From Limihaloglobus sulfuriphilus (GTDB lineage: Bacteria > Planctomycetota > Phycisphaerae > Sedimentisphaerales > Sedimentisphaeraceae): a DNA stretch of 64,000 bases. The stretch is from contig NZ_CP019646.1 of the NCBI RefSeq assembly GCF_001999965.1, positions 2,914,001 through 2,978,000 of the forward strand, in the 5' to 3' direction. Below, piece after piece: positions 2,145-43,265 of the stretch. The notes under the pieces were generated by a model. The model had not been told where the DNA came from and searched no databases. It worked only from the letters and a program-made list of their open reading frames with translations. The translations under genes and the position numbers were made by a program. Position 1 is the first letter of the stretch, and every line of letters begins with the position of its first letter.

Positions 2145-2213
2145 TTATGCTTTTATCTCATCGGAGCTGAACACGCGTTTTGCCTTACCCGCCTGCCTGG
2201 GCAGACCGCCTAA
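2145..2213 (-). pseudogene. Displaced native 3' end of paaK
   Basis: Read on the minus strand, this segment encodes LGGLPRQAGKAKRVF followed by SSDEIKA and a stop at 2145-2147. The first part is identical at protein level to the C-terminus of the PaaK ligase encoded at 4033-5322; the last seven residues differ from the present PaaK end. LPRxxGKAKRV is a normal C-terminal motif of phenylacetate-CoA ligases, so this looks like the original tail of the gene, cut off when the DUF262 unit inserted. It has no start codon of its own. Confidence 0.7.
2170..2213. repeat. 44-bp direct repeat, distal copy (att-like)
   Basis: This stretch matches 4064-4107 in the same orientation at 43 of 44 positions (the difference is A at 2205 against G at 4099). 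The distance between copies is 1894 bp. The sequence contains a 7-2-7 palindrome (GCCTGCC / GGCAGAC here; perfect in the other copy) and, on the minus strand, codes the last conserved motif of PaaK. It marks the outer end of the DUF262-bearing unit. Confidence 0.85.
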
Positions 2214-2238
2214 AATCCGACGAGAAAAAAAGGAATAT

Positions 2239-3945
2239 TTAAAAACTTATTCTCCAAATAGAGGTTGCCTGACGTGCCATCCATTTTTGTCTTGCTTCAA
2301 TCTTTTCCGGGTTCCACTCCGAATATTCTTCTGCTATCTTTTTTGTAATTCCGAACTGGCTGGAACGATAGTTTGTTATTTTTTCATCAAAACTGCAATT
2401 CCCAATATCTCTGTTTGGTCCGGTTTCCATTAGAGCCATGTTTCCTAAACGGTACACATATCTGGAATGTTGGTTTTCGTCAAGACTTGCCCAGGATTCA
2501 TCAGGGTTTTCGGGCAGAATATGCTCTATATTGTATTTATCACTTTCTCTGTCAAATTTCTGGCTGGTTAAATGTTTTTCGAGTTCGAACAGAATATATC
2601 TGACAACTTGCTTATTTCGTGAATTTGTTGTTTTGAACTCTTTTTCCATAAAAGAAGATTTGAATCTTGAATCTTCAGGATAATTCTCTTTAAGCCGGCT
2701 CAACACTTCGCTTGCCGTTTGGATTTTTCCTGATGTCAGCTCAACTGCAATTGAATTATAATTTCTTTCCTGTTCATTTGACTGGAAGTTGCATATCACA
2801 TTGTATCTGAATGATATAATCGTGACAGCTCTTAGTATCTTAGTAAATGAATCGGAGTCACTCTGAGAAAATTTAACGTGAGCTGCAAGTAAAACAGCAA
2901 AGGGCTGTTTCACATAGAACATTTTTAACAGCTTGAGGCATTCCTGCTCCTTGCTTGACCACATGTTATCGTGCGGGTCACGTATAGCAGCGTAGATATT
3001 AGCGTATCTATCCAGATCTCTTATAATCTCAAATGCGGATGCTTTGGTTTGAATCTCTTTTCGGATTGTTTTGAAAAGATCAGTTTTACGCACGAGTTTT
3101 CTGCGGCTGTTCCAAAAAACACGTAGAAATTCGGGAAAACTCTCACTTCCCAATGTACCCACAATTCTTTCCCAGCGTTCTTCAAGATTTTTTAACTCTT
3201 TTTCATGAGAGCCCTCATTGTTAACGACTGAGAAAAGATAGTTCTTTAATAGATCAGTAGAAGAAAGCCTCACTCCTCTGGCATTCAAAGTTTCAAACAC
3301 TTTAAATGCGTTAAGTTCGTCGCTTACTGTAATAACTGTGAAAAACAATTTATCAACTATAGAATCAATAAATTTCGCTAATTCCTGCCCGTTTTCAGAA
3401 GCAAAGCCTTTTATTTTGTCTTTGAACCAGGTAAATGATTTTCTAAGTTGATGTTCTGAGGATCTAAGGCCTCGTTGAGGAAGCGGCTCCAGAGGGACTA
3501 AGTAATTCTGGTAAAATTGATCATTGTGCCTGTTGAGCTTAAGTTTTGTACGTGGAATTAGAGTCACAGGGTCAAGATAACCAATATAGTTACTGCGTAA
3601 TTGCTCTAATCGTCTTTTGTTGTTATCCGGATCTTGATTTTGCTCGGCCAAATCGTTCAATATCGATAGTGAAGCCAGAACTATTATACTCAATGTTGTT
3701 ATACGCTGTTGACCATCGATTATATCAAAATCTTTACTGTCATCTGATTGAAGCACAAGATAACCCATATAATGACTTGGTTCAGGGTCTGCGTCAAACA
3801 GGCTGACAATATCCTGCCATAGATCATCCCATTCTTCGGCGGTCCATGAATAATCTCGCTGAAAAGAAGGAACCTTATATGTTAAACCATTGCCTAATAG
3901 CTGGCGGAATGTTTGATTAGCTGTGTTAAAATTGGTGTTAGCCAT
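2239..3945 (-). CDS. GmrSD-type DUF262/DUF1524 single-chain restriction protein
   Basis: This 568-residue protein has the two halves of GmrSD-like defence proteins in one chain. The N-terminal DUF262 domain shows VPSFQRDYSW (25-34) and the diagnostic DGQQR (77-81), a ParB/Srx-like NTPase fold. The C-terminal DUF1524 domain shows an HNH-type EHILP (474-478) and LGNMALM (500-506) followed by the usual Asn and Lys/Tyr-rich region. Known members such as GmrSD cleave phage DNA with modified cytosines, and single-chain DUF262 proteins occur in several defence contexts. ATG at 3945 has GGGAG upstream. The gene stands alone within an integrated unit at the end of paaK, which supports a transferred defence role. 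The modification it recognises cannot be inferred. Confidence 0.85.
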   Translation of the reverse strand: MANTNFNTANQTFRQLLGNGLTYKVPSFQRDYSWTAEEWDDLWQDIVSLFDADPEPSHYMGYLVLQSDDSKDFDIIDGQQRITTLSIIVLASLSILNDLAEQNQDPDNNKRRLEQLRSNYIGYLDPVTLIPRTKLKLNRHNDQFYQNYLVPLEPLPQRGLRSSEHQLRKSFTWFKDKIKGFASENGQELAKFIDSIVDKLFFTVITVSDELNAFKVFETLNARGVRLSSTDLLKNYLFSVVNNEGSHEKELKNLEERWERIVGTLGSESFPEFLRVFWNSRRKLVRKTDLFKTIRKEIQTKASAFEIIRDLDRYANIYAAIRDPHDNMWSSKEQECLKLLKMFYVKQPFAVLLAAHVKFSQSDSDSFTKILRAVTIISFRYNVICNFQSNEQERNYNSIAVELTSGKIQTASEVLSRLKENYPEDSRFKSSFMEKEFKTTNSRNKQVVRYILFELEKHLTSQKFDRESDKYNIEHILPENPDESWASLDENQHSRYVYRLGNMALMETGPNRDIGNCSFDEKITNYRSSQFGITKKIAEEYSEWNPEKIEARQKWMARQATSIWRISF

Positions 3946-4032
3946 TTTATAAGCTCCCTCGCGTTTATACTTACATTATATCAGTCTGAAAACGATAATA
4001 TAATAAAAGTTTGATTAACGCAAAAAGAATCT

Positions 4033-5322
4033 TTATTGAACAGTTCTACAGTCTTCTTTACGAAACACGCGTTTTGCCTTACCCGCCTGCCTGGGCAGGC
4101 CGCCTAAGGGGAACACATCACCTTTTGGGCTGAAACCGAGTGCCTCTTTGAGTGCTTTCTCGACCATGAAGCCGGTAACGCCTTCCTCGACCTCGACATT
4201 TACGCGGACATCTTTCACGCCGTTGTGCTCCTCGAGGATTATCTGGTAATTCGCGCCGGCACCGGGGATTTTCATCAGTGCCTGTTCGACCTGTTTGGGC
4301 CAGAAGTTCACGCCCTTTACGATCAGCATATCATCTGTGCGGCCGGTAACCGATTCAATCTTTGTGTGCGCCCTGCCGCAGGCGCATTTCCCGCGGCTTA
4401 AAACCCTGGTCAAATCGCCCGTCCGAAGGCGTATGACAGGCAATGCCTCACGGGTCAGAGCGGTTACCACCAGCTCGCCGAACTCGCCGTCAGGCAGAAG
4501 CTCACCGGTGTCGGGGTTTATAACCTCTATTATATAGTGATCCTCCCAGACGTGTATGCCGCTGTGGTCAATGCAGTCCTGGCCGAGCGTGCCGACGCCG
4601 CCGGTCTCGGTCATTCCGTAAATATCGTATATTTCAGCGTTTAACCCGCCTTTTATCTTGGCTTTGAGCGAGTCGGAGAATATCTCAGCCCCGAATATCG
4701 CTACCTCTAAGTCCGGCAGATCCCGGCCCGTCTCGGCAAGCACCTCCATAATTCGTATTCCATAGCTGACAACGCCGGTGAATATGCGGGTTTTGAAGTC
4801 CCTGGCGAGCTTTATCTGCCTTTCGGTGTTGCCGGCACCTGTGGGGATGATAAACAGGCCGGCGGCGCGTGCCCCGTGATACATACCGAAGCCGCCGTTG
4901 AACAGACCGAAAGAGGGCGTAATCTGGATCGGGTCACCCTTTTCCGCGCCGGCCATACAGTAACAGCGTGCCATACACTCGGCCCACTGACGCAGATCAT
5001 TCTCCGTGTAGGGCATGACAACCGGCGTACCCGTAGAGCCGCTGGACATATGCATCTCGATCATGGACTTCTGCTCAACACAGCTCAGCCCCAACGGGTA
5101 GTTATCCCGCAGAGTAGCCTTGTCCATCAGCGGAAACGAGCTCAAATCCTCGAGCCCTTCCAGATCTTCCGGAACTATGCCGGCATCATTAAACCGCTTG
5201 CGCTGAACTGGATTATTCTCATAAACATAAGCCAGCATGCGTTTTAGCTTAGTAAGTTGAATATTTTTAATCTCATCCTGGCTCAAGGTCTCGAGCCGAA
5301 CATCAAAAAAGCTGTTTTCCAT
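4033..5322 (-). CDS. paaK: Phenylacetate-CoA ligase (AMP-forming)
   Basis: A 429-residue adenylate-forming enzyme that activates aryl acids such as phenylacetate to CoA thioesters. Visible are the P-loop-like SSGSTG near residue 93, YGMTETGG near 235, a Cys-rich turn (CACGRAH) common in this family, the GRTDDMLIVKGVNF hinge and the C-terminal GLPRQAGKAKRV motif. I place the start at the ATG at 5322, which has GGAG six bases upstream, rather than the TTG at 5334. In anaerobes paaK often accompanies iorAB, which makes aryl-acetyl-CoA from aromatic amino-acid keto acids; here iorB lies 4.8 kb upstream, separated by accessory genes. The last nine residues (RKEDCRTVQ) appear to come from the integrated DUF262 unit. 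Confidence 0.9.
   Translation of the reverse strand: MENSFFDVRLETLSQDEIKNIQLTKLKRMLAYVYENNPVQRKRFNDAGIVPEDLEGLEDLSSFPLMDKATLRDNYPLGLSCVEQKSMIEMHMSSGSTGTPVVMPYTENDLRQWAECMARCYCMAGAEKGDPIQITPSFGLFNGGFGMYHGARAAGLFIIPTGAGNTERQIKLARDFKTRIFTGVVSYGIRIMEVLAETGRDLPDLEVAIFGAEIFSDSLKAKIKGGLNAEIYDIYGMTETGGVGTLGQDCIDHSGIHVWEDHYIIEVINPDTGELLPDGEFGELVVTALTREALPVIRLRTGDLTRVLSRGKCACGRAHTKIESVTGRTDDMLIVKGVNFWPKQVEQALMKIPGAGANYQIILEEHNGVKDVRVNVEVEEGVTGFMVEKALKEALGFSPKGDVFPLGGLPRQAGKAKRVFRKEDCRTVQ
4064..4107. repeat. 44-bp direct repeat, copy inside paaK 3' end (att-like)
   Basis: Partner of 2170-2213. Here it lies within the coding sequence of paaK, covering the conserved GGLPRQAGKAKRVF motif, and contains the perfect palindrome GCCTGCC-TG-GGCAGGC at 4085-4100. 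Since the motif is expected in PaaK proteins, this copy (or its partner) is gene sequence reused as a crossover site rather than a foreign repeat that happened to land in frame. Confidence 0.85.
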
Positions 5323-5391
5323 GTATATCTCCAATTAGTAACAGGTCAGACGTTGTCGAAACTGTTTGTTCTATACAAGCACTAATAAAGA

Positions 5392-5739
5392 CTAATTCTC
5401 TTCTAAGTCTAACTGTTCAAGCTGTAAATTCATTGCTTTGGCAAGTTTGACCAGTGTATTGCGGTGAGGATTCTGGCCGGCTCTCTCGATCTGTGCCAGG
5501 GCAGATTGAGAAATACCTGCTTTGGCTGCCACGTTTTTCTGAGTGAGGCCAAGGTATTTTCTCCAGGCCTTGATGATAGACATATCATCCACAACCATCA
5601 TCTCGACTACCTCATGAGGAACCGTCTGTCCGTTATCGTAACCGGTAAGTGCAATATAATCATCATAAGGAAGAACAGCGTATTCCGGTTTGCCGTTCCT
5701 CTCGATAATCTGAACATTTTTTTTAATAAGTACGCTCAT
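5392..5739 (-). CDS. HTH (Xre-type) antitoxin of a RelE-like module
   Basis: A 115-residue protein. The first half (IIERNGKPEYAVLPYDDY) resembles a Phd-type toxin-neutralising segment; the second half is a canonical Xre/Cro helix-turn-helix (LGLTQKNVAAKAGISQSALAQIER, here split: recognition helix around QSALAQIER). It would bind both toxin and operator DNA and repress its own operon. The gene starts 17 bp before the end of the toxin gene, so translation is probably coupled. Toxin-first order is as in HigBA. The pair sits between paaK and the restriction genes and may serve to stabilise the inserted island. Confidence 0.85.
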   Translation of the reverse strand: MSVLIKKNVQIIERNGKPEYAVLPYDDYIALTGYDNGQTVPHEVVEMMVVDDMSIIKAWRKYLGLTQKNVAAKAGISQSALAQIERAGQNPHRNTLVKLAKAMNLQLEQLDLEEN

Positions 5740-5977
5740 CTCTTTTGCCTACTTTCTCGATTGTAACGATCTTAATTTCCTGCTGCCACGAAAAGATAAC
5801 TCGATAGCGGCCAACACGCAGACGATACTGGCCTTGGCAGCCGGTTAAGGACTTGACATTAACGCAATCAGGCATACCGGCTAATCCGCCAACCTTTTCA
5901 ACAATAGTAACCTGTTGTTTTCGCGGCAGTTTCCGAAGCTGCTTGAGTGCTTTTAATGTCCAGTTTACCTTATTCAT
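5723..5977 (-). CDS. RelE/ParE-family toxin
   Basis: An 84-residue basic protein with the RelE-fold pattern: an N-terminal helix pair (ALKQLRKLPRKQQ), then SLTGCQGQYRLRVGRYRVIF, the strand-loop-strand core with conserved Arg residues (YRLRVGRYRV) that in this family bind mRNA in the ribosome A site, and a final strand ending KVGKRDERTY. The closing Arg/Tyr residues fit a ribosome-dependent endoribonuclease rather than a gyrase-poisoning ParE, although the two cannot be separated with certainty. The toxin precedes and overlaps its HTH antitoxin. The upstream 80 bases are very AT-rich and are the likely autoregulated promoter. Confidence 0.85.
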   Translation of the reverse strand: MNKVNWTLKALKQLRKLPRKQQVTIVEKVGGLAGMPDCVNVKSLTGCQGQYRLRVGRYRVIFSWQQEIKIVTIEKVGKRDERTY

Positions 5978-6058
5978 GTCTTATTTTATTACTTATATAA
6001 TAATTTAATTATAAGATATTTCAAGAAAAAACTTATAATTTTGAAAATTCGGGAATAA

Positions 6059-6187
6059 TTATTCCTTGTATAGCCGGTCATTTTGCCAGTTTTCGGTGTT
6101 TGTGACAAAATACGCTCCATACCGGCTATAATCATACCCCTTTAACCGTATAGAACGTCTATGATGTCTATCTGGTTCATAATTCAT
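6059..6187 (-). pseudogene. Truncated REP-associated tyrosine (Y1) transposase, N-terminal fragment
   Basis: A 42-codon ORF with ATG at 6187 reads HHRRSIRLKGYDYSRYGAYF then VTNTENW and stops at 6059. HHRRSIRLKGYDYSxxGAYFVT is the well-conserved N-terminus of RAYT/IS200-like Y1 transposases common in planctomycetes and Bacteroidetes. The HUH motif and catalytic Tyr regions that should follow are missing, so the protein cannot be active. It is probably the scar of a deletion. It lies between a DUF2442 ORF and the toxin-antitoxin pair, in the non-core block between iorB and paaK. Confidence 0.7.
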
Positions 6188-6215
6188 TTCATCTCAGGCA
6201 TTTGTCCATAATTTT

Positions 6216-6356
6216 CTACACCGGTAAACTGTCAGAATATAATGTTTCCGGGTCCAGATACTTTGAAACATCGAAAATCCGCTTTTCCCCGCCTTCAAAG
6301 GTGAGGCAGAGATGATGGTTTTCCAATGGTTTTACGTTGAGTACGCCTTTATACAT
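6216..6356 (-). CDS. Short DUF2442-like protein
   Basis: A 46-residue ORF starting two bases after the end of the restriction gene on the same strand. It reads MYKGVLNVKPLENHHLCLTF and continues with EGGEKRIFDVSKYLD, matching the start of DUF2442 proteins (pattern V..VkPL.dy.L.l.F..GE.rvFDv..yL). DUF2442 proteins are usually about 80 residues and are often paired with DUF4160, a suspected toxin-antitoxin arrangement. This one stops early at 6216, and no DUF4160 partner is visible, so it is probably a truncated remnant. It was too short for routine gene calling; the family call rests on the N-terminal pattern. Confidence 0.55.
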   Translation of the reverse strand: MYKGVLNVKPLENHHLCLTFEGGEKRIFDVSKYLDPETLYSDSLPV

Positions 6357-6358
6357 AA

Positions 6359-9148
6359 TTATCTACCAACAGATTTACGGATATTATATAGTTTTGTTAA
6401 ACCATCATAGGCTGCCAATCGGTCGGTCTCAGATAAGCCTATAGCTTCAGTTACTACCGTATCAAATTCAACTCTAATAGGATCCCTTAATTCTTCCAGA
6501 ATAGGCTTTACTTCACGCAACTTCAGCTTTGCAAAAGAAATTTTAATACTATCTTCTGCGTCTTTTGATATTAGTTCTATTTTGGGAACATGCAAACCAG
6601 CCCTAATATTTCTAGTATTAATATCAAGGACACCTAAACCCCGTCCAAAACCTATCGCTTCAATTAAGCCAATAACATATATACTATTAAGCAAAGCATG
6701 CAATAAAGACTCGTTAACGCTTTCATTTGTTACTGTCAAGGAAATTAGCCGCTGATCAACAAAAGCTGGCTCGTTTGGCTTGGGGACAAACAAACGGCTA
6801 TCAGGACTCATCGAAATAATAAAGTCAGCCAATTTAGATGTATCTATTTCATACCACGAAAGATTTGGATTTTCTATGAGTAATTTTTCAGGAATCGTTA
6901 TTCTTTTCCCTTTTACAATAGTAGTCTGATCCTTAAAGCGATTAATCCATCTAATTGCACCTTGTTTATTCACATCGGCCAACTCATCTTCTGTCATTGA
7001 GCAACAAAAAACTTGTTGGCTTGAGGAAACAACTAACTTTTTACACGTTCGGATATCCTTTATGAATGGTTTTAGAAATTCAGTTTCAATATTATAACAT
7101 TCATTTTCTCGAGGATAAAACAGTTTGTTCCAGCCCGTACGATTACCTCTTGATATTTTACAATAAAAGCTGAGTTTTTCAAACTTGTCTATATTAGGTA
7201 AAAACCACTTGAAATTCTCTTCCGAAAAGCAAAAGTTCCAACCAATATTACAACAGCGAAGCTGATCAACTTCCGTAACGGACGGTTTATTAACACTCAA
7301 ATAGTCAGAAGGCTGATCAATCAGAATTTCTGAAACCAATAATTTTAAATCATCTAACTCGCAATCTTCAATAGAACATAAAGTCGTTACAAACGAAGTT
7401 TCACAACATTCATCCTCCATATTCTTTTTCTGACATATAAGTAGGTTTGCGACGACATCAGCGTTGTCGAACCATTTGCCGCTTCCTGAGGTTACTACAT
7501 ATTTAACAGTGTAGAATTTTCGTAATAAATCACGAAATTTCTGCCCCCACCCCGTAGCAGGAAGCCAAGAATTTGATACAACTACCCCTAAATACCCGCC
7601 ATCATCTAATAAATCATAAACCTTAAAAGGAATATATGCTAACAGGTCACTCCTTCCATCAAGTTGCTCTGCTGTCGGTATGTTATATTTGTCATAAAAT
7701 TCTTTTATTTTTATTTTTGCAGACAGGTTCAGTTTCTTTATATCCTCAAATCTAACAAAAGGTAAGTTTGAAATAATAGCTGAAAATTTAGGTAAATGAC
7801 GTTTTATGTTATTTCCTGTTGACGGATCAATAAAGTCAATTTCTTTACCAGAATGTAAATCAAAAACATCGTGAGTAAAAATTTGTAAAATTTCGTTCAT
7901 TGCTTCCGGAGCCAACATAGCTAACGTTGAGATCTGAACCGGAAAAGCAAATTTATCAGCCCCCCATGTCTGTTTAAATGCTTCTCTACCAGTAATATGA
8001 TAATCTGATTTTGTTGACAATATCGCATTTAAAATAGTACCGGTTCCACAAAAAGGGTCAATGACCACAGCAGATTTATCTGATAACGTGAGACGTACCA
8101 AAAAATGCGCGAGTGGTTCCGGTGTAACATATAGCCCAGCCCCTTTTTTTATTGAAGATAATACAGCACAATGAAGAATACTATGAAGAACTTTTTTGTC
8201 TATCTTAGCAAACTCAAATTCTCTTAAAAAATGATTAAATCCAACAAGAGTGCTCCAAACTTCATCAGGAACCAGGGTATCAAAATCAGTTTTTTGGAAA
8301 ATATTTGAATAGTTGCTCTTGTTTGATATTTCAGAGAAAACCTTTAAAGCATCATGGACTGTTGTTTCATGCTGTATTCTTTCTACATCTTTCACTGCTG
8401 ACGTATATGCTTTTAATATGTTTGAAAAAACAAATCGGTTAAACCACCGTAGCAAAACATGGTAAGCCAGTGGGCTTGCCGGTGAATCTTCACCAGGATA
8501 CTGATGCTTCACTTGCCTCCACCACACATCAACTTTAGCATCAATGGCACTATCTCGTTGTATCTCATTTTCTATAAACAATTTCACTTCGGCATGACAC
8601 GAAAGCAATTGATTGATTATGCCGTCATTAGAAAACATGACACCCGGAGCAACGCCCGATATACGCCCTCCTTCAAAGAGACGGTCTATTTTTGCTAAAA
8701 TATCATATGCAGCATTCTTCCACAAGTCTGGCTTATTACTAACATCGTTTCTTGTGCTGATAGCCCCATTATGATAGAGAGGCTCAGGGTAGAGCTCGTA
8801 TTCGTTACTTACTTCATTTAAGATGTACAGATTTGCCGTCTTAACATTCCATACAACATAGCTGTTCAATTGTAACGCAATAGCTTTTTTCTTTGCATTA
8901 CCTATTAGCTCAGTATCATCGATAGGAGTATCGGGCATCTTCAGCTCCCATCCCTGAAGAACATGTCCATGTGACTTGCTGGAATACAATAAAACATCCG
9001 GGAAAAGCAGATTTTTCCCCGTTTTAAGTGTGTTTTCACCAGATGCCCGCTTTATTGATAAGTTAACTTTTGGCAAAAGGCTATTAATATGTGAAATAAG
9101 ATCAATCGCCCAAGAACGTTCATTATATCGAAGCTTTGCGGTTGACAT
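6359..9148 (-). CDS. Type IIG-like restriction enzyme/N6-adenine methyltransferase fusion
   Basis: A 929-residue protein that combines cutting and methylating domains. The N-terminus has a PD-(D/E)XK-type nuclease signature, FPD (49-51) and WELK (67-70). From about residue 335 comes a gamma-class N6-adenine methyltransferase: GLYVTPEPLAHFLV (338-351), SAM-binding motif I DPFCGTG (364-370) and motif IV at 461-464. The C-terminal 350 residues should hold the target-recognition domain. Motif IV reads NLPF where NPPF/NPPY is usual, which could reduce or alter methylation. It overlaps the upstream methyltransferase gene by 26 bp, so the two are one operon. An Eco57I-like arrangement (fused enzyme plus separate methyltransferase) is the closest match in layout. 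Base composition is AT-rich compared with paaK and ior. Confidence 0.8.
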   Translation of the reverse strand: MSTAKLRYNERSWAIDLISHINSLLPKVNLSIKRASGENTLKTGKNLLFPDVLLYSSKSHGHVLQGWELKMPDTPIDDTELIGNAKKKAIALQLNSYVVWNVKTANLYILNEVSNEYELYPEPLYHNGAISTRNDVSNKPDLWKNAAYDILAKIDRLFEGGRISGVAPGVMFSNDGIINQLLSCHAEVKLFIENEIQRDSAIDAKVDVWWRQVKHQYPGEDSPASPLAYHVLLRWFNRFVFSNILKAYTSAVKDVERIQHETTVHDALKVFSEISNKSNYSNIFQKTDFDTLVPDEVWSTLVGFNHFLREFEFAKIDKKVLHSILHCAVLSSIKKGAGLYVTPEPLAHFLVRLTLSDKSAVVIDPFCGTGTILNAILSTKSDYHITGREAFKQTWGADKFAFPVQISTLAMLAPEAMNEILQIFTHDVFDLHSGKEIDFIDPSTGNNIKRHLPKFSAIISNLPFVRFEDIKKLNLSAKIKIKEFYDKYNIPTAEQLDGRSDLLAYIPFKVYDLLDDGGYLGVVVSNSWLPATGWGQKFRDLLRKFYTVKYVVTSGSGKWFDNADVVANLLICQKKNMEDECCETSFVTTLCSIEDCELDDLKLLVSEILIDQPSDYLSVNKPSVTEVDQLRCCNIGWNFCFSEENFKWFLPNIDKFEKLSFYCKISRGNRTGWNKLFYPRENECYNIETEFLKPFIKDIRTCKKLVVSSSQQVFCCSMTEDELADVNKQGAIRWINRFKDQTTIVKGKRITIPEKLLIENPNLSWYEIDTSKLADFIISMSPDSRLFVPKPNEPAFVDQRLISLTVTNESVNESLLHALLNSIYVIGLIEAIGFGRGLGVLDINTRNIRAGLHVPKIELISKDAEDSIKISFAKLKLREVKPILEELRDPIRVEFDTVVTEAIGLSETDRLAAYDGLTKLYNIRKSVGR

Positions 9149-10010
9149 CGGTAATCAGCTCCTTTATATATCCTGTACGTGCAATTTTTGTTGAAAACAT
9201 CATTTCTGGAGCAGAGAAGTAGGCTCTTCTTAAACGCTCTTTTGCAACTTGTATAAGATTTATGTATTCATCCTTAAAAAGCCTTGAATCCTGATTTTTT
9301 TCTATGCCGATAAAATTCCTGTTTTCCAATAGTGCAGAAACAAGAAAACTTCCCGCCCCAAAGGTGTTATCTAAAACAACATCCCCTTCATTCGTAAAAG
9401 TCCGAATAAGTTCACGTCCTAGACCAACTGGTTTTTGGGTGGGGTGCCAAACCTTTACCTCTTCTTCGCTTTCTGGTGTCTTATGATAGATTATATCAGT
9501 TGGATATCTCAATCCGTTTTTGCTCTCTACTAAAGAAGGTTGAAATCTCCCATAGCTGCCAGTAAATTGGTTTTTCCTAACCCCCTTTGAATACGGTATT
9601 CCCGGTCTCATCTGAGGATTGTAAACTGGCTGCTTACGATAAAAAACACAAATATCTTCATGCTTTCTTAGAGGTTGTTTTTTTGCGTTTAAAAAGTTTG
9701 TAGGTTTTGATTTTTCCCATACAAATTTATATTTGAAAAATTTTTCATTACTTATTATAAGTTTAGCTGTGAAAACTCCTTGAGAGGTTAGTATTATTGC
9801 ACCGTCAGGTTTAACAATTCTATGATATTGCTCCCATAGTTTATTTAACGGGATAACTGAGTCCCATTTATTCTGGGTAGTTCCATAAGGTAAGTCACAT
9901 AGCACCATATCAACAGAGTTGTCTGGCAAATACGTCATTATATCCAAGCAATCGCCTTCAAATAAATTGTTCAAATACTGAGATCGCTCCAGTAACTTTG
10001 GCTTATTCAT
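9123..10010 (-). CDS. Beta-class DNA (adenine-N6 or cytosine-N4) methyltransferase
   Basis: A 295-residue modification enzyme. Motif order places the catalytic motif DLPYG (39-43) before the SAM-binding motif (LDNTFGAGSF, 213-222), which is the beta class. HPTQKPV (189-195) is typical of this Pfam N6/N4 methylase family, and the stretch DLPYGTTQNKWDSVIPL is characteristic of phage- and RM-borne adenine methylases. The gene overlaps the downstream nuclease-methyltransferase gene by 26 bp and should protect the host target or one strand of an asymmetric target. Start is ATG at 10010 with a weak ribosome site. Its recognition sequence cannot be told from the sequence. Confidence 0.85.
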   Translation of the reverse strand: MNKPKLLERSQYLNNLFEGDCLDIMTYLPDNSVDMVLCDLPYGTTQNKWDSVIPLNKLWEQYHRIVKPDGAIILTSQGVFTAKLIISNEKFFKYKFVWEKSKPTNFLNAKKQPLRKHEDICVFYRKQPVYNPQMRPGIPYSKGVRKNQFTGSYGRFQPSLVESKNGLRYPTDIIYHKTPESEEEVKVWHPTQKPVGLGRELIRTFTNEGDVVLDNTFGAGSFLVSALLENRNFIGIEKNQDSRLFKDEYINLIQVAKERLRRAYFSAPEMMFSTKIARTGYIKELITDVNRKASI

Positions 10011-10128
10011 TGTATAACTCCATAATGAATGTGATTACTTAGAAATTAGATACACGCATTTTCATAACCAAATAAAAACCTAATAATATTATAAATAGAT
10101 AAAAGTTAAAATTCAATAAAATTTTCTG

Positions 10129-10167
10129 AAAAAACGGGATTTCCAGTTCTGGCTGAAAATCCCGTTT
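10129..10167 (-). terminator. Intrinsic terminator after iorB
   Basis: On the minus strand a 10-bp perfect stem (AACGGGATTT / AAATCCCGTT, 10133-10142 with 10157-10166), with a further CCAG/CTGG pairing in the loop, is followed by a T run. It lies 16 bp past the iorB stop and closes the ior transcript before the restriction genes. Confidence 0.8.
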
Positions 10168-10182
10168 GGAGTATTGTTTTGT

Positions 10183-10767
10183 TTATTTGTAGTCTCGTCC
10201 GGCCTGGAATGCCTTGAGGTTAAGCGCCAGGAATTTTGGCTTTACGGAGATTTCTATCGCCTCTTTCCAGGCTGCGTCTGGCAGGTCTAGCGCCTTTGAG
10301 ACGGCCCCGAGTGTTACGACGTTTGCGCATTTTACGTTTCCAAGCTCCACTGCGATTTTGCCCGCGTCGAAGTACACCAGATTGGGGAACTTTGCTTTGA
10401 GCCGCTCCTGGGCATCCTTTGGATACGCGGCAACGCCCATCGAAACCGTAACCGGCACCATCATCTGGGAGTTAACCACTACCAGCCCGTCAGGGGCGAG
10501 GTACTGGGCATACCGCAGTGCCTCGATATTTTCCAGGGCTCCCACGACCGCGGCGGTTCCTTCCTGCACGATAGGACTGTAAACCTCTTTGCCGTAGCGT
10601 ATCTGGGCGATAACCGAGCCGCCCCGCTGTGCCATGCCGTGCACTTCGTTTGTCTTTACGTCATATCCGGCGATGCGGGCAGCCTGGGCAACGATCTCGC
10701 TTGCCAGCAGGATTCCCTGTCCGCCTACGCCGCACAGAACTACACTTGTTGTCTTATTTTCGCTCAT
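10183..10767 (-). CDS. iorB: Indolepyruvate:ferredoxin oxidoreductase, beta subunit
   Basis: A 194-residue subunit of the oxygen-sensitive enzyme that oxidatively decarboxylates aryl pyruvates (indolepyruvate, phenylpyruvate, hydroxyphenylpyruvate) to aryl-acetyl-CoA with reduction of ferredoxin. It shows the pyruvate:ferredoxin oxidoreductase gamma-type fold start VVLCGVGGQGILLASEI and the conserved NEVHGMAQRGGSV (around 40-52). The ATG lies one base past the iorA stop with GGAGG inside the iorA end, so translation is coupled. The enzyme is cytosolic and anaerobic, working in aromatic amino-acid catabolism, with paaK as a natural partner. Confidence 0.93.
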   Translation of the reverse strand: MSENKTTSVVLCGVGGQGILLASEIVAQAARIAGYDVKTNEVHGMAQRGGSVIAQIRYGKEVYSPIVQEGTAAVVGALENIEALRYAQYLAPDGLVVVNSQMMVPVTVSMGVAAYPKDAQERLKAKFPNLVYFDAGKIAVELGNVKCANVVTLGAVSKALDLPDAAWKEAIEISVKPKFLALNLKAFQAGRDYK

Positions 10768-10768
10768 A

Positions 10769-12514
10769 TCAGCTGTCCTCCTTTGAGACTATCGCGTTGA
10801 ATTTACAGACCTGGCCGCACATATTGCAGCCGACACACAGCAGCGGGTTTACCTTTGGCTTGCCGCTGCCGCCCTCGATAGCGGGACAGCCGAGCTTGAG
10901 GCACATGCCGCACTCTTTGCAGTTCTCCTCGATAACCTCGTGGATACCGCCGATAGCGAGTTTTTCCTTGAGCACGCACGGGCCCTTGGAGATGATCAGC
11001 GAGGGCTCATCCGCCGCGATCTCTTCTTTGACGATCTTCATAGCCTCGGGCAGGTCATACGGGTTCAGCTCGCGTATCCTCTTGATTCCGCAGGCCTTGC
11101 CGAACTCGGCGATAGATGCCTCGGTTGTCGGCTCACCCATCAGCGTCTTGCCGGTTCCGGGGTGGTCCTGATGGCCGGTCATTGCGGTAGTGCGGTTGTC
11201 AGCTACGATTAGAGTAGAGTTGCCCTTGTTGTAACCAATGTTCAGTAAACCGGTTATACCGGAATGGAAGAAAGTGGAATCGCCCACAATACCCACGACC
11301 GGCTTGGGGTTTTTTGCCTTGTCGATGCCGTGAGCCATTGAGATGCCCCCGCCCATACAAAGGATAATATCCAGTGCGTTGAGCGGTTTGAAGGTGCCCA
11401 GGCTGTAACAGCCGATATCGCCTGTAACGACGGCCTTTTCGCGTGCCAAAGCGTAGAAAACGCCGCGGTGCGGACAGCCGGCACACAATACCGGAGGCCT
11501 GCCGGGCAGGTCAGTATCCGGCTCAAATTTATTTTGAGCAGGCTTTCCCTCTTCGTATGCCGCACGCACAGCCGCAAGCCGTGTCGGCGAGAGCTCGCCG
11601 ATGCCCGGCACAAAATCGCGGCCGAGGCAGTCAATGCCCATGGCAAGTATATGCTGTTCGAGAAGATCATCTAACTCCTCTACAACGAGTATGTTATCCA
11701 CCTTGGCGGCGAATTCTCTGATTAGCTCATCTGGGAACGGATACGAGAATGTCAGCTTAAGCACGGATGCTTCGGGCCAGACCTCACGGACGTACTGGTA
11801 GGTGATACCCGCGGCGATGATGCCCAGTTTTGTATCACGCATTTCGATTCGGTTCCATTCGCTGGCAGAGGCCGCCTGGCGAAGTTTCTGGAGCCGCTCT
11901 TCGACCTTGACACGCATCGGGCGGGCCCACAGCGGAACCGGCACCCATCGCGGCGGGTCTTTTTCAAAGCCGACCTCATTGGGCTCTCTGCGATCGCGGC
12001 ATTCCACGAGGCTCCTCGAATGGCTCACACGGGTTGTGCTGCGGACGATTACGGGTGTCTCGTATTTCTCGGAAATATCCATCGCATAAACGATAACGTC
12101 TTTGGCTTCCTGGCTGCTGGACGGCTCGAAAATCGGTATCTTGGCGAATTTAGCGTAGTTACGTGTATCCTGCTCGTTCTGAGAGGAGTGCATTCCCGGG
12201 TCATCGGCAACGATAGCAACAAATCCCCCTTTTACGCCCAGATATGCCAGCGTCATCAGCGGGTCAGCGGCGACGTTGAGCCCAACGTGCTTCATGGTAA
12301 CTATCGAGCGGGCGCCGGCCATCGCGGCAGCGGCACCGACCTCGAAAGCGACCTTTTCGTTCGGTGCCCATTCGCAGTAGATGTCCTGTTTGTAGTTTAC
12401 GACCGCTTCGAGAATTTCAGTAGAGGGTGTTCCCGGATACGCCGAAGCAACGGTTACGCCGGCTTCCCATGCGCCGCGGGCAAACGCCTCATTTCCTGAC
12501 AGTAGCTTTATCAA
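10769..12514 (-). CDS. iorA: Indolepyruvate:ferredoxin oxidoreductase, alpha subunit
   Basis: A 581-residue thiamine-diphosphate subunit. The N-terminus (GNEAFARGAWEAGVTVASAY) is the PFOR-like pyrimidine-binding domain; the middle has CAGCPHRG and GDIGCYSLG, then a TPP-binding GIVGDSTFFHSG region. The C-terminus is a two-cluster ferredoxin domain, with CxxCxxCxxxxCP from Cys532 and CxxCxxCxxxC from Cys560, the route for electrons to ferredoxin. Start is a TTG at 12514, supported by AGGAG nine bases upstream and the absence of a better start. It leads the iorAB operon, which ends at a terminator after iorB. Confidence 0.95.
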   Translation of the reverse strand: MIKLLSGNEAFARGAWEAGVTVASAYPGTPSTEILEAVVNYKQDIYCEWAPNEKVAFEVGAAAAMAGARSIVTMKHVGLNVAADPLMTLAYLGVKGGFVAIVADDPGMHSSQNEQDTRNYAKFAKIPIFEPSSSQEAKDVIVYAMDISEKYETPVIVRSTTRVSHSRSLVECRDRREPNEVGFEKDPPRWVPVPLWARPMRVKVEERLQKLRQAASASEWNRIEMRDTKLGIIAAGITYQYVREVWPEASVLKLTFSYPFPDELIREFAAKVDNILVVEELDDLLEQHILAMGIDCLGRDFVPGIGELSPTRLAAVRAAYEEGKPAQNKFEPDTDLPGRPPVLCAGCPHRGVFYALAREKAVVTGDIGCYSLGTFKPLNALDIILCMGGGISMAHGIDKAKNPKPVVGIVGDSTFFHSGITGLLNIGYNKGNSTLIVADNRTTAMTGHQDHPGTGKTLMGEPTTEASIAEFGKACGIKRIRELNPYDLPEAMKIVKEEIAADEPSLIISKGPCVLKEKLAIGGIHEVIEENCKECGMCLKLGCPAIEGGSGKPKVNPLLCVGCNMCGQVCKFNAIVSKEDS

Positions 12515-15440: not shown

Positions 15441-15551
15441 TGCGCCTTGGCAAATTTTAACGCTGCATTAAATTTTACCTCGTCCGCAGATTTCAGCAGA
15501 AGACGATTATCAGCACCACTCAAGTCATTACAACAAAACGCCTTACCCCTC

Positions 15552-15629
15552 GTAGAGACGCATTGCATGCGTCTCTCTGCAACGAACATCTGGAAGTTTT
15601 ACGAGTCACATGGTCAAAGCTCAAGAGAG
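15552..15629 (+). repeat. Dispersed palindromic repeat, copy 1
   Basis: A 78-bp sequence starting with a perfect 10-3-10 inverted repeat (AGAGACGCAT-TGC-ATGCGTCTCT, 15554-15576) and a 50-bp tail. It is about 88-90% identical to 18220-18297 in the same orientation. A third, shorter stem of the same type is at 18342-18364. It looks like a REP/MITE-type element in non-coding DNA. Confidence 0.8.
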
Positions 15630-15677
15630 GTATGCAATGCTATAAAGTAAAAAAATTACACGTTTTTTATTTTTCTA

Positions 15678-18068: not shown

Positions 18069-18219
18069 AATTATTACTTTGGGGATAAACAACAACTTGA
18101 TGTTTCATTAAGAAATATCTATTATACACATAAAATGCAGTTTATCAAGCACGAACAAAAAGATTGCAATGCTTAGCGTGTGTAAAATTCTCTTCGAAGA
18201 AGAATTCTGACAAAATTCC

Positions 18220-18297
18220 GTAGAGACGCATTGCATGCGTCTCTCTGCAACGGACATCTGGCAGTTTTGCGGATCATACGGCCAAAGCTCAAGAGAC
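18220..18297 (+). repeat. Dispersed palindromic repeat, copy 2
   Basis: Same 78-bp unit as 15552-15629, in the same orientation, exactly 2668 bp downstream, with about nine mismatches. The perfect 10-3-10 stem is conserved while the tail has drifted. It lies in the otherwise empty gap 18069-18431. Confidence 0.8.
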
Positions 18298-18341
18298 ATA
18301 TATTTGTTTCTATCTTCATATTATTGAGGAGTGCAGGCCTA

Positions 18342-40706: not shown

Positions 40707-42535
40707 CACTGCTGCCCCTGCTGTTGCTGCTGCTCCTGCATCTTCTGGTATTCCTGCATGAAAGTCTCGTTTTCCTCGGTGAGTTTTTCAAAGACTTCCG
40801 GCCGCTCATTTTCAAGACGCTGCATCAGTGCGTAGCTCATGTTCGGAGGATAATAGGGATCGTTCATGAAGTTTATGAGGGCGATGTAACGCAGCCTTGA
40901 GAACGAAGGCAGCGTAACCCGCTCACCCTCAAAATCCTCTGTGCGGTAAATATCATACACCTGGCGGGCGAGCTGTTCTTTGCCCATCGCTTCCTGATCA
41001 TCATAGATCGCATACCGGAAATACGCCTCGCTGAGCAGCGTTGTGCACGCCTCCATAGCATCATAAATGGTTATGCCCTCGAACTCTTCTTTTATCCGCT
41101 GGCGGCAGAAAACCTCTATCGGGACAGAATTCTCCGGCCGCGGGTAACGCTCCCGGAGATCCTTGTAAATCTGAGAAGCCTTCTTGACATGGCCGGCCTG
41201 ATAAAACGAAAGCACGGCGTTTGTCAGCATGTTCCGGTGTCCGGTATAGAGCGACCTCGAGCCTGCTTCGCCGTCTTCGCCGCTGTACTTTTCGATACGC
41301 TCAATCTGAGCGGCGTTATAGGAATCGAACATCCTCAAATCGGGTACTGTGTAGAGCGACTTGCCGTACTTGGCGGCGCCGACAGTGTCTTCTGCGCCGA
41401 TTTCGGATTCCGTCGCCTCTGCCGGCAATACCGCGTCATAGACAACGAGCCTGCCCGTCCTGAAAAGATTCTGTAAACTGTGGAACACGATACGGTCTGT
41501 ATTGATCTCGTCTATTGAGTAATCCTCGCCGACAACGCCCTCACTGCCGGCCTGTGCAAGGCCCTTCTCAGCCCAGTATATCGCGTGTGCGTCCGGGTGT
41601 TCCCAGTTGAGAGGCTCTCTGACTCCTTCTTCAAAGGTGATCGGGCCGTACTTCTCGTTTAACTTTATCATCAAATCGATGTCAAACTTCCAGGTATTGC
41701 GAAGCTCCCACGCCTGAGAAAAATCCCGCATCGCGATCAGCGCGTCGCTCTGCTCGTAATCCTGCATCAGAAGAACTGCCTCCTCAGAGAAACCCTGCTC
41801 TTTGTTGAAAAGTCTGAGAAACTCAAGGGGGAACTTCTCTTCATCTGCCAGCTTCTCGTCAGCGGCCTTTAGCTTGTCGGCAAATTCAGCGAGCGTCTCA
41901 TTTGCCCGAAGCTGTTCAAACGTTTTTGGTGCCGCGGCAAGGCTGTCAAAATGCGCATTGGTCAACGGCTGCACCAGCGGACCCATCTCCATTATCAGCC
42001 GCAGTTTGTAGTATTTGTGCACATCATCGGTAACACCGCTCATCTTGTGCTGGAAAATCCACGCCAGAGAGCGGTAAAGTATAATCGCATTGGGGTTGTA
42101 TTCGATGCCCTTATCCCGCAGCAGTTCAAATCCGTTCTTGACCCAGTGCCACCGCTCTTCGGGCCGGCTGGAGGGGATTGCCACCGATATATTATACGCC
42201 ATGTTCCAGGCATGAAAATCCCACACGCTGGCAAACCGCGGCTGGAGAACCGTGATCCACTCGGCGATCTGCTTGGCATCGAAGAACTGCCCCTCTTCTT
42301 TGAGCCTGTCGGCTCGCATCCAGAGTATATCAACAACGAGACCGCGAAACGCGCCCATAGCAACCGTTGCGAAAGCAAGCGAGGGCGGCGCGTTCTCCAG
42401 CGGCTTATCAGTACTGATCAGCTTGAGCTCTTTACGCATCGCGTTTATATCGTCAAGCTGCATCAGTGCAGACAACAGCAAGCCGGCGCCGGCTATAACA
42501 AACATTAACGAAATTATTATATTCTTTATACGCAT
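40706..42535 (-). CDS. Conserved hypothetical membrane protein, 609 aa, Gln-rich tail
   Basis: I do not recognise a named family. There is one N-terminal membrane segment (about 6-27) and a second hydrophobic stretch (AFATVAMGAFRGLVVDILW, about 54-72); the rest is soluble and helical, with TPR-like spacing (AEWITVLQPRFASVWDFHAW; NPNAIILYRSLAWIF). The tail is Gln-rich (MQEQQQQQGQQ). It follows an ABC exporter on the same strand, so it may be a partner in that export system, with the bulk of the protein outside the membrane. Between it and the permease gene lies an inserted four-helix-bundle ORF with repeats; its start codon is inside the repeat. Confidence 0.75.
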   Translation of the reverse strand: MRIKNIIISLMFVIAGAGLLLSALMQLDDINAMRKELKLISTDKPLENAPPSLAFATVAMGAFRGLVVDILWMRADRLKEEGQFFDAKQIAEWITVLQPRFASVWDFHAWNMAYNISVAIPSSRPEERWHWVKNGFELLRDKGIEYNPNAIILYRSLAWIFQHKMSGVTDDVHKYYKLRLIMEMGPLVQPLTNAHFDSLAAAPKTFEQLRANETLAEFADKLKAADEKLADEEKFPLEFLRLFNKEQGFSEEAVLLMQDYEQSDALIAMRDFSQAWELRNTWKFDIDLMIKLNEKYGPITFEEGVREPLNWEHPDAHAIYWAEKGLAQAGSEGVVGEDYSIDEINTDRIVFHSLQNLFRTGRLVVYDAVLPAEATESEIGAEDTVGAAKYGKSLYTVPDLRMFDSYNAAQIERIEKYSGEDGEAGSRSLYTGHRNMLTNAVLSFYQAGHVKKASQIYKDLRERYPRPENSVPIEVFCRQRIKEEFEGITIYDAMEACTTLLSEAYFRYAIYDDQEAMGKEQLARQVYDIYRTEDFEGERVTLPSFSRLRYIALINFMNDPYYPPNMSYALMQRLENERPEVFEKLTEENETFMQEYQKMQEQQQQQGQQ

Positions 42536-42727
42536 AAGTCTAAACTAATAACTATTAACTAATAACTAATAGTTAAAATTCCTATAACAGTATTCACAAT
42601 TTTGTGGTTCATTTCTCGTTCTACAATCAAAACTGTCATCGCAAATAATTTACCGCAAGCCAAGCTCAAACTATTAGTTATTAGTTATTCACTTTTCACT
42701 ATCCACTATTCACTTAAACAGTTATTC
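42529..42727. repeat. Direct repeat A flanking the four-helix-bundle gene
   Basis: Identical to 43081-43265 except for a 14-bp extra segment (42694-42707, a further copy of the local TTTCACTATCCACT motif). It spans from the last bases of the four-helix-bundle gene to the first codons of the 609-residue gene. Inside it, an 18-bp perfect inverted repeat (AACTAATAACTAATAGTT at 42557-42574 and its complement at 42669-42686) frames about 130 bp, a MITE-like layout. Confidence 0.9.
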
Positions 42728-43087
42728 ACATCTTTCTGGTTCATTTGACGTCTTAACAGTCGATACAAGCATCGCAACCAATTCGCAGCAATCCGAGTTC
42801 AAGCTGTTGAACATTTCTTTGTTTATATATTCTGTTTCTTTTAAAAGCGATATCCAGTAATCTGTTTCATTGGCCTCTTTTAAGGCTATTGTCATTTTAT
42901 TGCAAAAATCCTGCCTGCTTCGGGCAAACTCTGCTTCGCGGATCAAAGCTCCAATCGCCGTGCCGCTGCGAAGAACCTGACGGCTCATAACAAACTCTTT
43001 TTTCTTATCCTGTAAATATCTGGTACATCCAACGATTCGCTTTGCGAAATTAAAACTTTTATTCTGTAACACAGACACTTTACGCAT
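42722..43087 (-). CDS. Four-helix-bundle protein (S23/23S rRNA intervening-sequence family)
   Basis: A 121-residue protein with the features of the S23 family: KSFNFAKRIVGCTRYL at the first helix, MSRQVLRSGTAIGALIREAE (the conserved 'qllRSgtSi.aNi.EA' helix), then ALKEANETDYWISLLKE and a last helix LVAMLVSTVK. Relatives are encoded inside intervening sequences of 23S rRNA genes, as scattered ORFs, and as the Avd partner of diversity-generating retroelements, where they bind nucleic acid. Here it stands alone within a duplicated intergenic region inside an operon. Start and stop codons both lie in or at the edge of the repeats. Its function here is unknown. Confidence 0.85.
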   Translation of the reverse strand: MRKVSVLQNKSFNFAKRIVGCTRYLQDKKKEFVMSRQVLRSGTAIGALIREAEFARSRQDFCNKMTIALKEANETDYWISLLKETEYINKEMFNSLNSDCCELVAMLVSTVKTSNEPERCE

Positions 43088-43265
43088 AAGTCTAAACTAA
43101 TAACTATTAACTAATAACTAATAGTTAAAATTCCTATAACAGTATTCACAATTTTGTGGTTCATTTCTCGTTCTACAATCAAAACTGTCATCGCAAATAA
43201 TTTACCGCAAGCCAAGCTCAAACTATTAGTTATTAGTTATTCACTATTCACTTAAACAGTTATTC
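43081..43265. repeat. Direct repeat B flanking the four-helix-bundle gene
   Basis: Partner of 42529-42727. It spans from the last codons and stop of the ABC permease gene to the start of the four-helix-bundle gene. Near-perfect identity over 185 bp shows that the duplication is recent or kept uniform by recombination. Confidence 0.9.

Follow-up and report, generated by a model that had tools for sequence, protein, structure and literature searches.

Cis-mobilizable elements (CIMEs), which are decayed ICEs or IMEs, measure 1.2–13 kb, carry cargo only and have been described at the 3′ ends of the protein-coding genes fda, rpsI and rpmG (PMC7563491). The H47 genomic island of E. coli excises and integrates without a recombinase of its own (PMC3191183, PMC5426353). 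In Helicobacter pylori, a long target duplication has been proposed for the insertion of restriction-modification (RM) genes (Nobusato et al. 2000, as summarized in PMC1643837 and PMC3031569). HEC-06 is a known family whose proteins are described as working alone, and single-protein enzymes are the commonest GmrSD form (PMC11411939). Here we describe a HEC-06 gene that lies between two copies of a 44-bp sequence behind paaK, in a window of 64,000 nucleotides, the whole stretch of Limihaloglobus sulfuriphilus DNA that was analyzed. The features of the locus are collected in Table 1.

Table 1. Annotated features at and around the paaK 3′ end, with window positions and strand.
Feature	Position	Strand	Remarks
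Outer tail: rest of Phe codon, SSDEIKA, stop	2145..2169	-	no similarity to ortholog tails
Outer 44-bp repeat copy	2170..2213	-	attR-like; alternatively, what remains of the 3′ end of a second paaK allele
Inserted unit, 1,850 bp, 37% G+C	2214..4063	-	without integrase, transposase or terminal inverted repeats
HEC-06 / GmrSD-like protein, 568 aa, DUF262 + DUF1524	2239..3945	-	motifs intact
HEC-06 upstream region inside the unit	3946..4032	-	RBS-like GGGAG at ~3954-3958; TATAAT hexamer at 3975-3980
Present paaK tail RKEDCRTVQ and stop	4033..4063	-	weakly similar to ortholog tails
paaK-like phenylacetate-CoA ligase	4033..5319	-	below NCBIfam equivalog cut-off
Inner 44-bp repeat copy, last conserved paaK codons (LGGLPRQAGKAKRVF)	4064..4107	-	attL-like
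Second A+T-rich defence insert between iorB and paaK, 37% G+C	~5335..10182	-	no long flanking repeats
HTH antitoxin-like protein	5392..5739	-	
ParE-like toxin	5723..5977	-	
Type IIG restriction enzyme-methyltransferase	6359..9148	-	
N6/N4 DNA methyltransferase	9123..10010	-	
iorB + iorA	10183..12514	-	directly upstream of paaK in relatives

Comparison of the window sequence confirmed the repeats reported in a preliminary description of this DNA, with 43 of 44 positions identical, and also its reading of the two copies: the inner copy lies in frame at the C-terminus of paaK, and the outer copy, translated in the paaK frame, gives LGGLPRQAGKAKRVF-SSDEIKA-stop. The copies differ only at the third position of a Gly codon (GGC/GGT), a synonymous change. 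Identity ends abruptly on both sides, also in a gapped alignment, and the flanks of the two copies share no sequence. When the 3.87-Mb genome was searched with a 24-bp part of the core, allowing up to three mismatches, two copies were found, both at this locus. The paaK end motif was detected in 11 of the 161 genomes of the order, with two copies only in the source genome and one copy in each of the other 10. We saw neither an insert-free paaK that ends in RKEDCRTVQ with the 44-bp copy downstream nor many dispersed copies, two findings that the preliminary description had named as contrary to its account. As a control, flanking repeats were scored at 29 paaK loci and about 47 loci with HEC-06 homologues, and loci cut by contig ends were set aside. 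The window reached a score of 41 and a Candidatus Contendobacter locus (L063) a score of 30, while no other valid control locus scored above 15. The 44-bp repeat is confirmed, and it is beyond chance.

A G+C-rich palindrome in the core would suit a dispersed, REP-like palindromic repeat; this origin, like a tandem duplication of the paaK end, is scarcely credible. The former is refuted by the presence of two copies only and by the nature of the core, which is paaK coding sequence conserved in orthologs and therefore no dispersed repeat. The latter is excluded in its simple form because the tails behind the two copies differ. The palindrome itself had been presented as a 7-2-7 structure of the core. 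It is present and perfect in the inner copy only, as the single mismatch falls in one arm in the outer copy, and the motif CTGCC-NN-GGCAG derives mostly from the codons of a conserved LPRQ (Leu-Pro-Arg-Gln) motif; a relative (L004) has CTGCCGAGGCAG. Around the outer copy (2151-2230) we also noticed, post hoc, a 13/15 inverted repeat (TTTTATCTCATCGGA / TCCGACGAGAAAAAA) whose two arms lie in the insert and in the flank, respectively. Its shuffle p-value is 0.0017, and it fits no model.

The G+C content changes sharply at the repeats, with 37% in the insert, 54% in paaK and 56% in iorAB. Apart from the HEC-06 gene, no substantial gene lies between the repeats; genes for recombination or conjugation are absent there, and the unit holds no cognate integrase, which a tyrosine-recombinase element would be expected to have. 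The encoded protein carries PF03235 (3.1e-37) and PF07510 (1.2e-31) in one chain and matches the PADLOC HEC-06 profile PDLC04154 over its full length (1.2e-243, profile positions 1–567 of 569). The catalytic motifs FQRDY, DGQQR at 77, FETLN and HILPEN at about 475 are present, as are later Asn residues. The stop codon lies 25 bp ahead of the outer repeat. In the region upstream of the gene, a promoter scan of this strand gave no full sigma-70 match at the TATAAT hexamer. Judging from its family (PMC10952713, PMC11411939), the protein would be expected to cut phage DNA with modified bases. The data support a foreign one-gene defence unit at the paaK 3′ end that keeps the paaK reading frame, in agreement with the integrase-less one-gene DUF262 unit behind a whole PaaK that had been proposed. 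The novelty that had been suggested for a one-gene GmrSD unit is unsupported, since HEC-06 is a known single-protein GmrSD-like defence family and this form is the commonest. The sampled HEC-06 homologues (49–59% identity) lie in or beside BREX, type III RM, MADS and type I RM loci; the Pseudanabaena homologue, for example, is found between pglX and pglZ (BREX). HEC-06 was not found in viral contigs, and phage homologues are only 24–28% identical.

The paaK gene of the window is 65–67% identical to orthologs located after iorAB. The genes iorA, iorB and paaK are contiguous in six relatives, where iorB and paaK abut or overlap, and the uninterrupted order in relatives is iorA-iorB-paaK-dctP, the gene after paaK being TRAP-transporter-like (name read from the sequence). 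In the window, the second insert separates iorB from paaK while both genes are whole, so that paaK is enclosed by two foreign defence inserts and the locus forms a small defence island. Only the HEC-06 unit, of these two inserts, has a duplicated target.

No gene-end duplication was found elsewhere in the window or in about 0.4 Mb of genome stretches that were scanned; the scan showed instead dispersed non-coding repeats, one tandem duplication and some further longer direct repeats. Palindromic repeats at 15551-15633 and 18219-18301 of the window, have the ends GTAGAGACGCA...TGCGTCTCT, and a third piece that resembles such an end lies near 18340; they are probably members of a family of dispersed non-coding repeats. 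At 42529-42700 and 43081-43252 lie the two copies of an A+T-rich direct repeat of 172 bp (99%), which has inverted relatives at 43221 and 50293. A near-perfect tandem duplication of 1,976 bp lies at L123:1835-5781 (approximately G000:C1:1141834-1145780). At L118:14572-18498, a truncated hsdS-like gene stands beside the gene of a 905-aa methyltransferase-type RM protein, and 97-bp copies of a non-coding repeat, dispersed with six matches in the genome, flank this pair.

How the unit came to the paaK 3′ end can be explained in several ways. We tentatively place first a recombination at an att-like core of 44 bp, through a recombinase that the unit lacks, then an exchange with a donor strain, and after it a long target duplication. 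In the leading explanation, the core would be formed by the last 15 conserved codons of paaK, and a foreign HEC-06 unit would recombine there. The core would then stand at both ends of the unit, attL-like in paaK and attR-like downstream, and a stop codon past the inner core would leave PaaK whole. The unit could be the decayed remainder of a larger integrative element or the passenger of an outside recombinase. We infer both the role of the repeat as a working recombination core and the identity of the acting enzyme; the genome contains 11 Phage_integrase matches, none of them near paaK, and these integrases may act on the unit in trans. The sharp ends of the repeat, the uniqueness of its copies, the G+C step, the uninterrupted relatives and the precedents of CIMEs and H47 all argue for recombination at the core, as do the integrases that could act in trans and the lack of a Ku gene. 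Counted against it are the lack of a second element with the core or an empty site, the absence of any of the integrases from the vicinity of paaK and the roughly 47 HEC-06 loci, none of which has a comparable repeat except L063, where this gene family took a different path. Empty sites, an excised circle and a second element with the core were all absent among the 161 genomes of the order and the plasmid, phage and viral collections. A search for the core in collections of phages, viral contigs and plasmids yielded no convincing match, with one partial 31-bp plasmid match (E 0.04), and a literature search on paaK as an integration site found no paper.

A further point against recombination at the core comes from the two tails. 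The LGGLPRQAGKAKRVF end motif is shared by orthologs from the order and from other parts of the phylum, and it is followed by short and variable tails (YKK, YRAKDGTLR, YRAQDGTLQ, RRDKDGNLT, YKDKDGTIR, FKSKEAGK, YETDQ). These orthologs, which are about 66% identical, have a single repeat copy and share neither tail of the window. We compared RKEDCRTVQ and SSDEIKA with 12 ortholog tails, each against its own shuffles. RKEDCRTVQ was more similar to the ortholog tails than its shuffles (p-values of 0.02 for the mean and 0.05 for the best match), and SSDEIKA showed no excess over shuffles (p-values of 0.44 and 0.53). SSDEIKA had been called a natural-looking tail and RKEDCRTVQ a replacement of the native one; the first view finds no support in these values and the second is not borne out, RKEDCRTVQ being a weakly ortholog-like tail. 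Core recombination and target duplication would both predict that SSDEIKA is native and RKEDCRTVQ insert-borne, and the tail test points weakly in the opposite direction. This test is not decisive, because it compares short peptides, because the tails are not independent of one another, and because gene ends supplied by an element can resemble those of the host. Synteny with the left neighbour (827-2107) does not tell the ancestral tail either, as this gene and paaK are on different contigs in G044 and G057, the genomes in which both genes were located.

The weakly native-like tail of paaK fits an exchange with a donor at least as well. A strain with the order paaK-RKEDCRTVQ-HEC-06 would have recombined into a paaK-SSDEIKA strain by homology-facilitated illegitimate recombination, with one crossover in paaK and the other at random. 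The last 44 conserved bases of the recipient and its tail would remain, and no recombinase core would be involved. This scenario is consistent with the synonymous nature of the sole difference between the 44-bp copies and with the 3′ end of the repeat, which falls just where the conserved part of the protein stops. It also has a similar footprint at L063 (1317-3330, 3125-4239), where HEC-06 sits behind hsdS, within a type I RM operon. The order there is hsdS, HEC-06, an hsdR 5′ fragment, an hsdS 3′ fragment, a zeta-toxin-like gene and a complete hsdR. The hsdR fragment is identical at 94 of 115 positions to the full hsdR further on, and the hsdS fragment has a different tail and a 36-bp block with 34 identical positions (51/64 overall). 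The best reading of this layout is that two type I operons recombined, one of which had HEC-06 embedded in it, and thus a gene-3′-end remnant behind HEC-06 is possible without a recombinase core. However, the homology at L063 is graded (80%), whereas the repeat of the window is short, near-identical and abruptly bounded. Two alleles that agree at 43 of 44 positions over 15 codons and have wholly unrelated tails would in addition need an extra event, and a search gave no donor in which HEC-06 adjoins paaK. Overall, we regard the donor exchange as somewhat unlikely.

Long direct repeats of the target around a restriction-type gene would equally result if the 44 bp had been duplicated at the insertion of a unit without a core, through a staggered break and its repair. 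The structure fits, but the mechanism of such a break and repair is undefined, and under this duplication paaK should bear a foreign tail with no likeness to paaK tails, contrary to the weak tail signal. Furthermore, the genome has no Ku gene, which makes classical end-joining capture unlikely. We therefore consider a long target duplication improbable.

The islet is real, well-bounded and unique among the sampled genomes, and it consists of known parts, as both its integrase-less kind and its defence gene have been described. It is a compact example of a single defence gene added behind a metabolic gene that stays unbroken. HEC-06 homologues in Pseudanabaena, Agrobacterium and Contendobacter have defence-locus neighbours, whereas the gene here stands alone behind a metabolic gene. 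Together with the Contendobacter case, the islet suggests that HEC-06 genes spread singly, as modules of one gene, and that they do so in more than one way. It is highly doubtful that the unit is a still-mobile minimal cassette, in which HEC-06 between 44-bp cores would be moved by a recombinase in trans and would give the host protein a new C-terminus at each insertion. If such mobility were true, the unit would be among the smallest recombinase-borrowing defence cassettes. A new class of trans-mobilized minimal defence cassettes is conceivable; no positive sign of mobility was seen.

The H. pylori case shares with this locus a restriction gene flanked by long direct target repeats. That case, as summarized in the two later papers, was proven by a strain with an empty site, whereas no such strain was found for the HEC-06 unit among the genomes covered. 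CIMEs share with it the att-like direct repeats, the cargo-only content and the lack of an integrase. Unlike for a CIME, no related ICE or IME and no integrase for this core was found, and there is no tandem element here. H47 is a 13-kb island with microcin cargo whose excision and integration were seen experimentally, in contrast to the HEC-06 unit, which is known from its sequence. It is likewise a small island between direct repeats with no recombinase of its own, and it relies on the host. As it has no recombinase of its own either, the HEC-06 unit is most aptly viewed as an islet of the CIME or H47 type.
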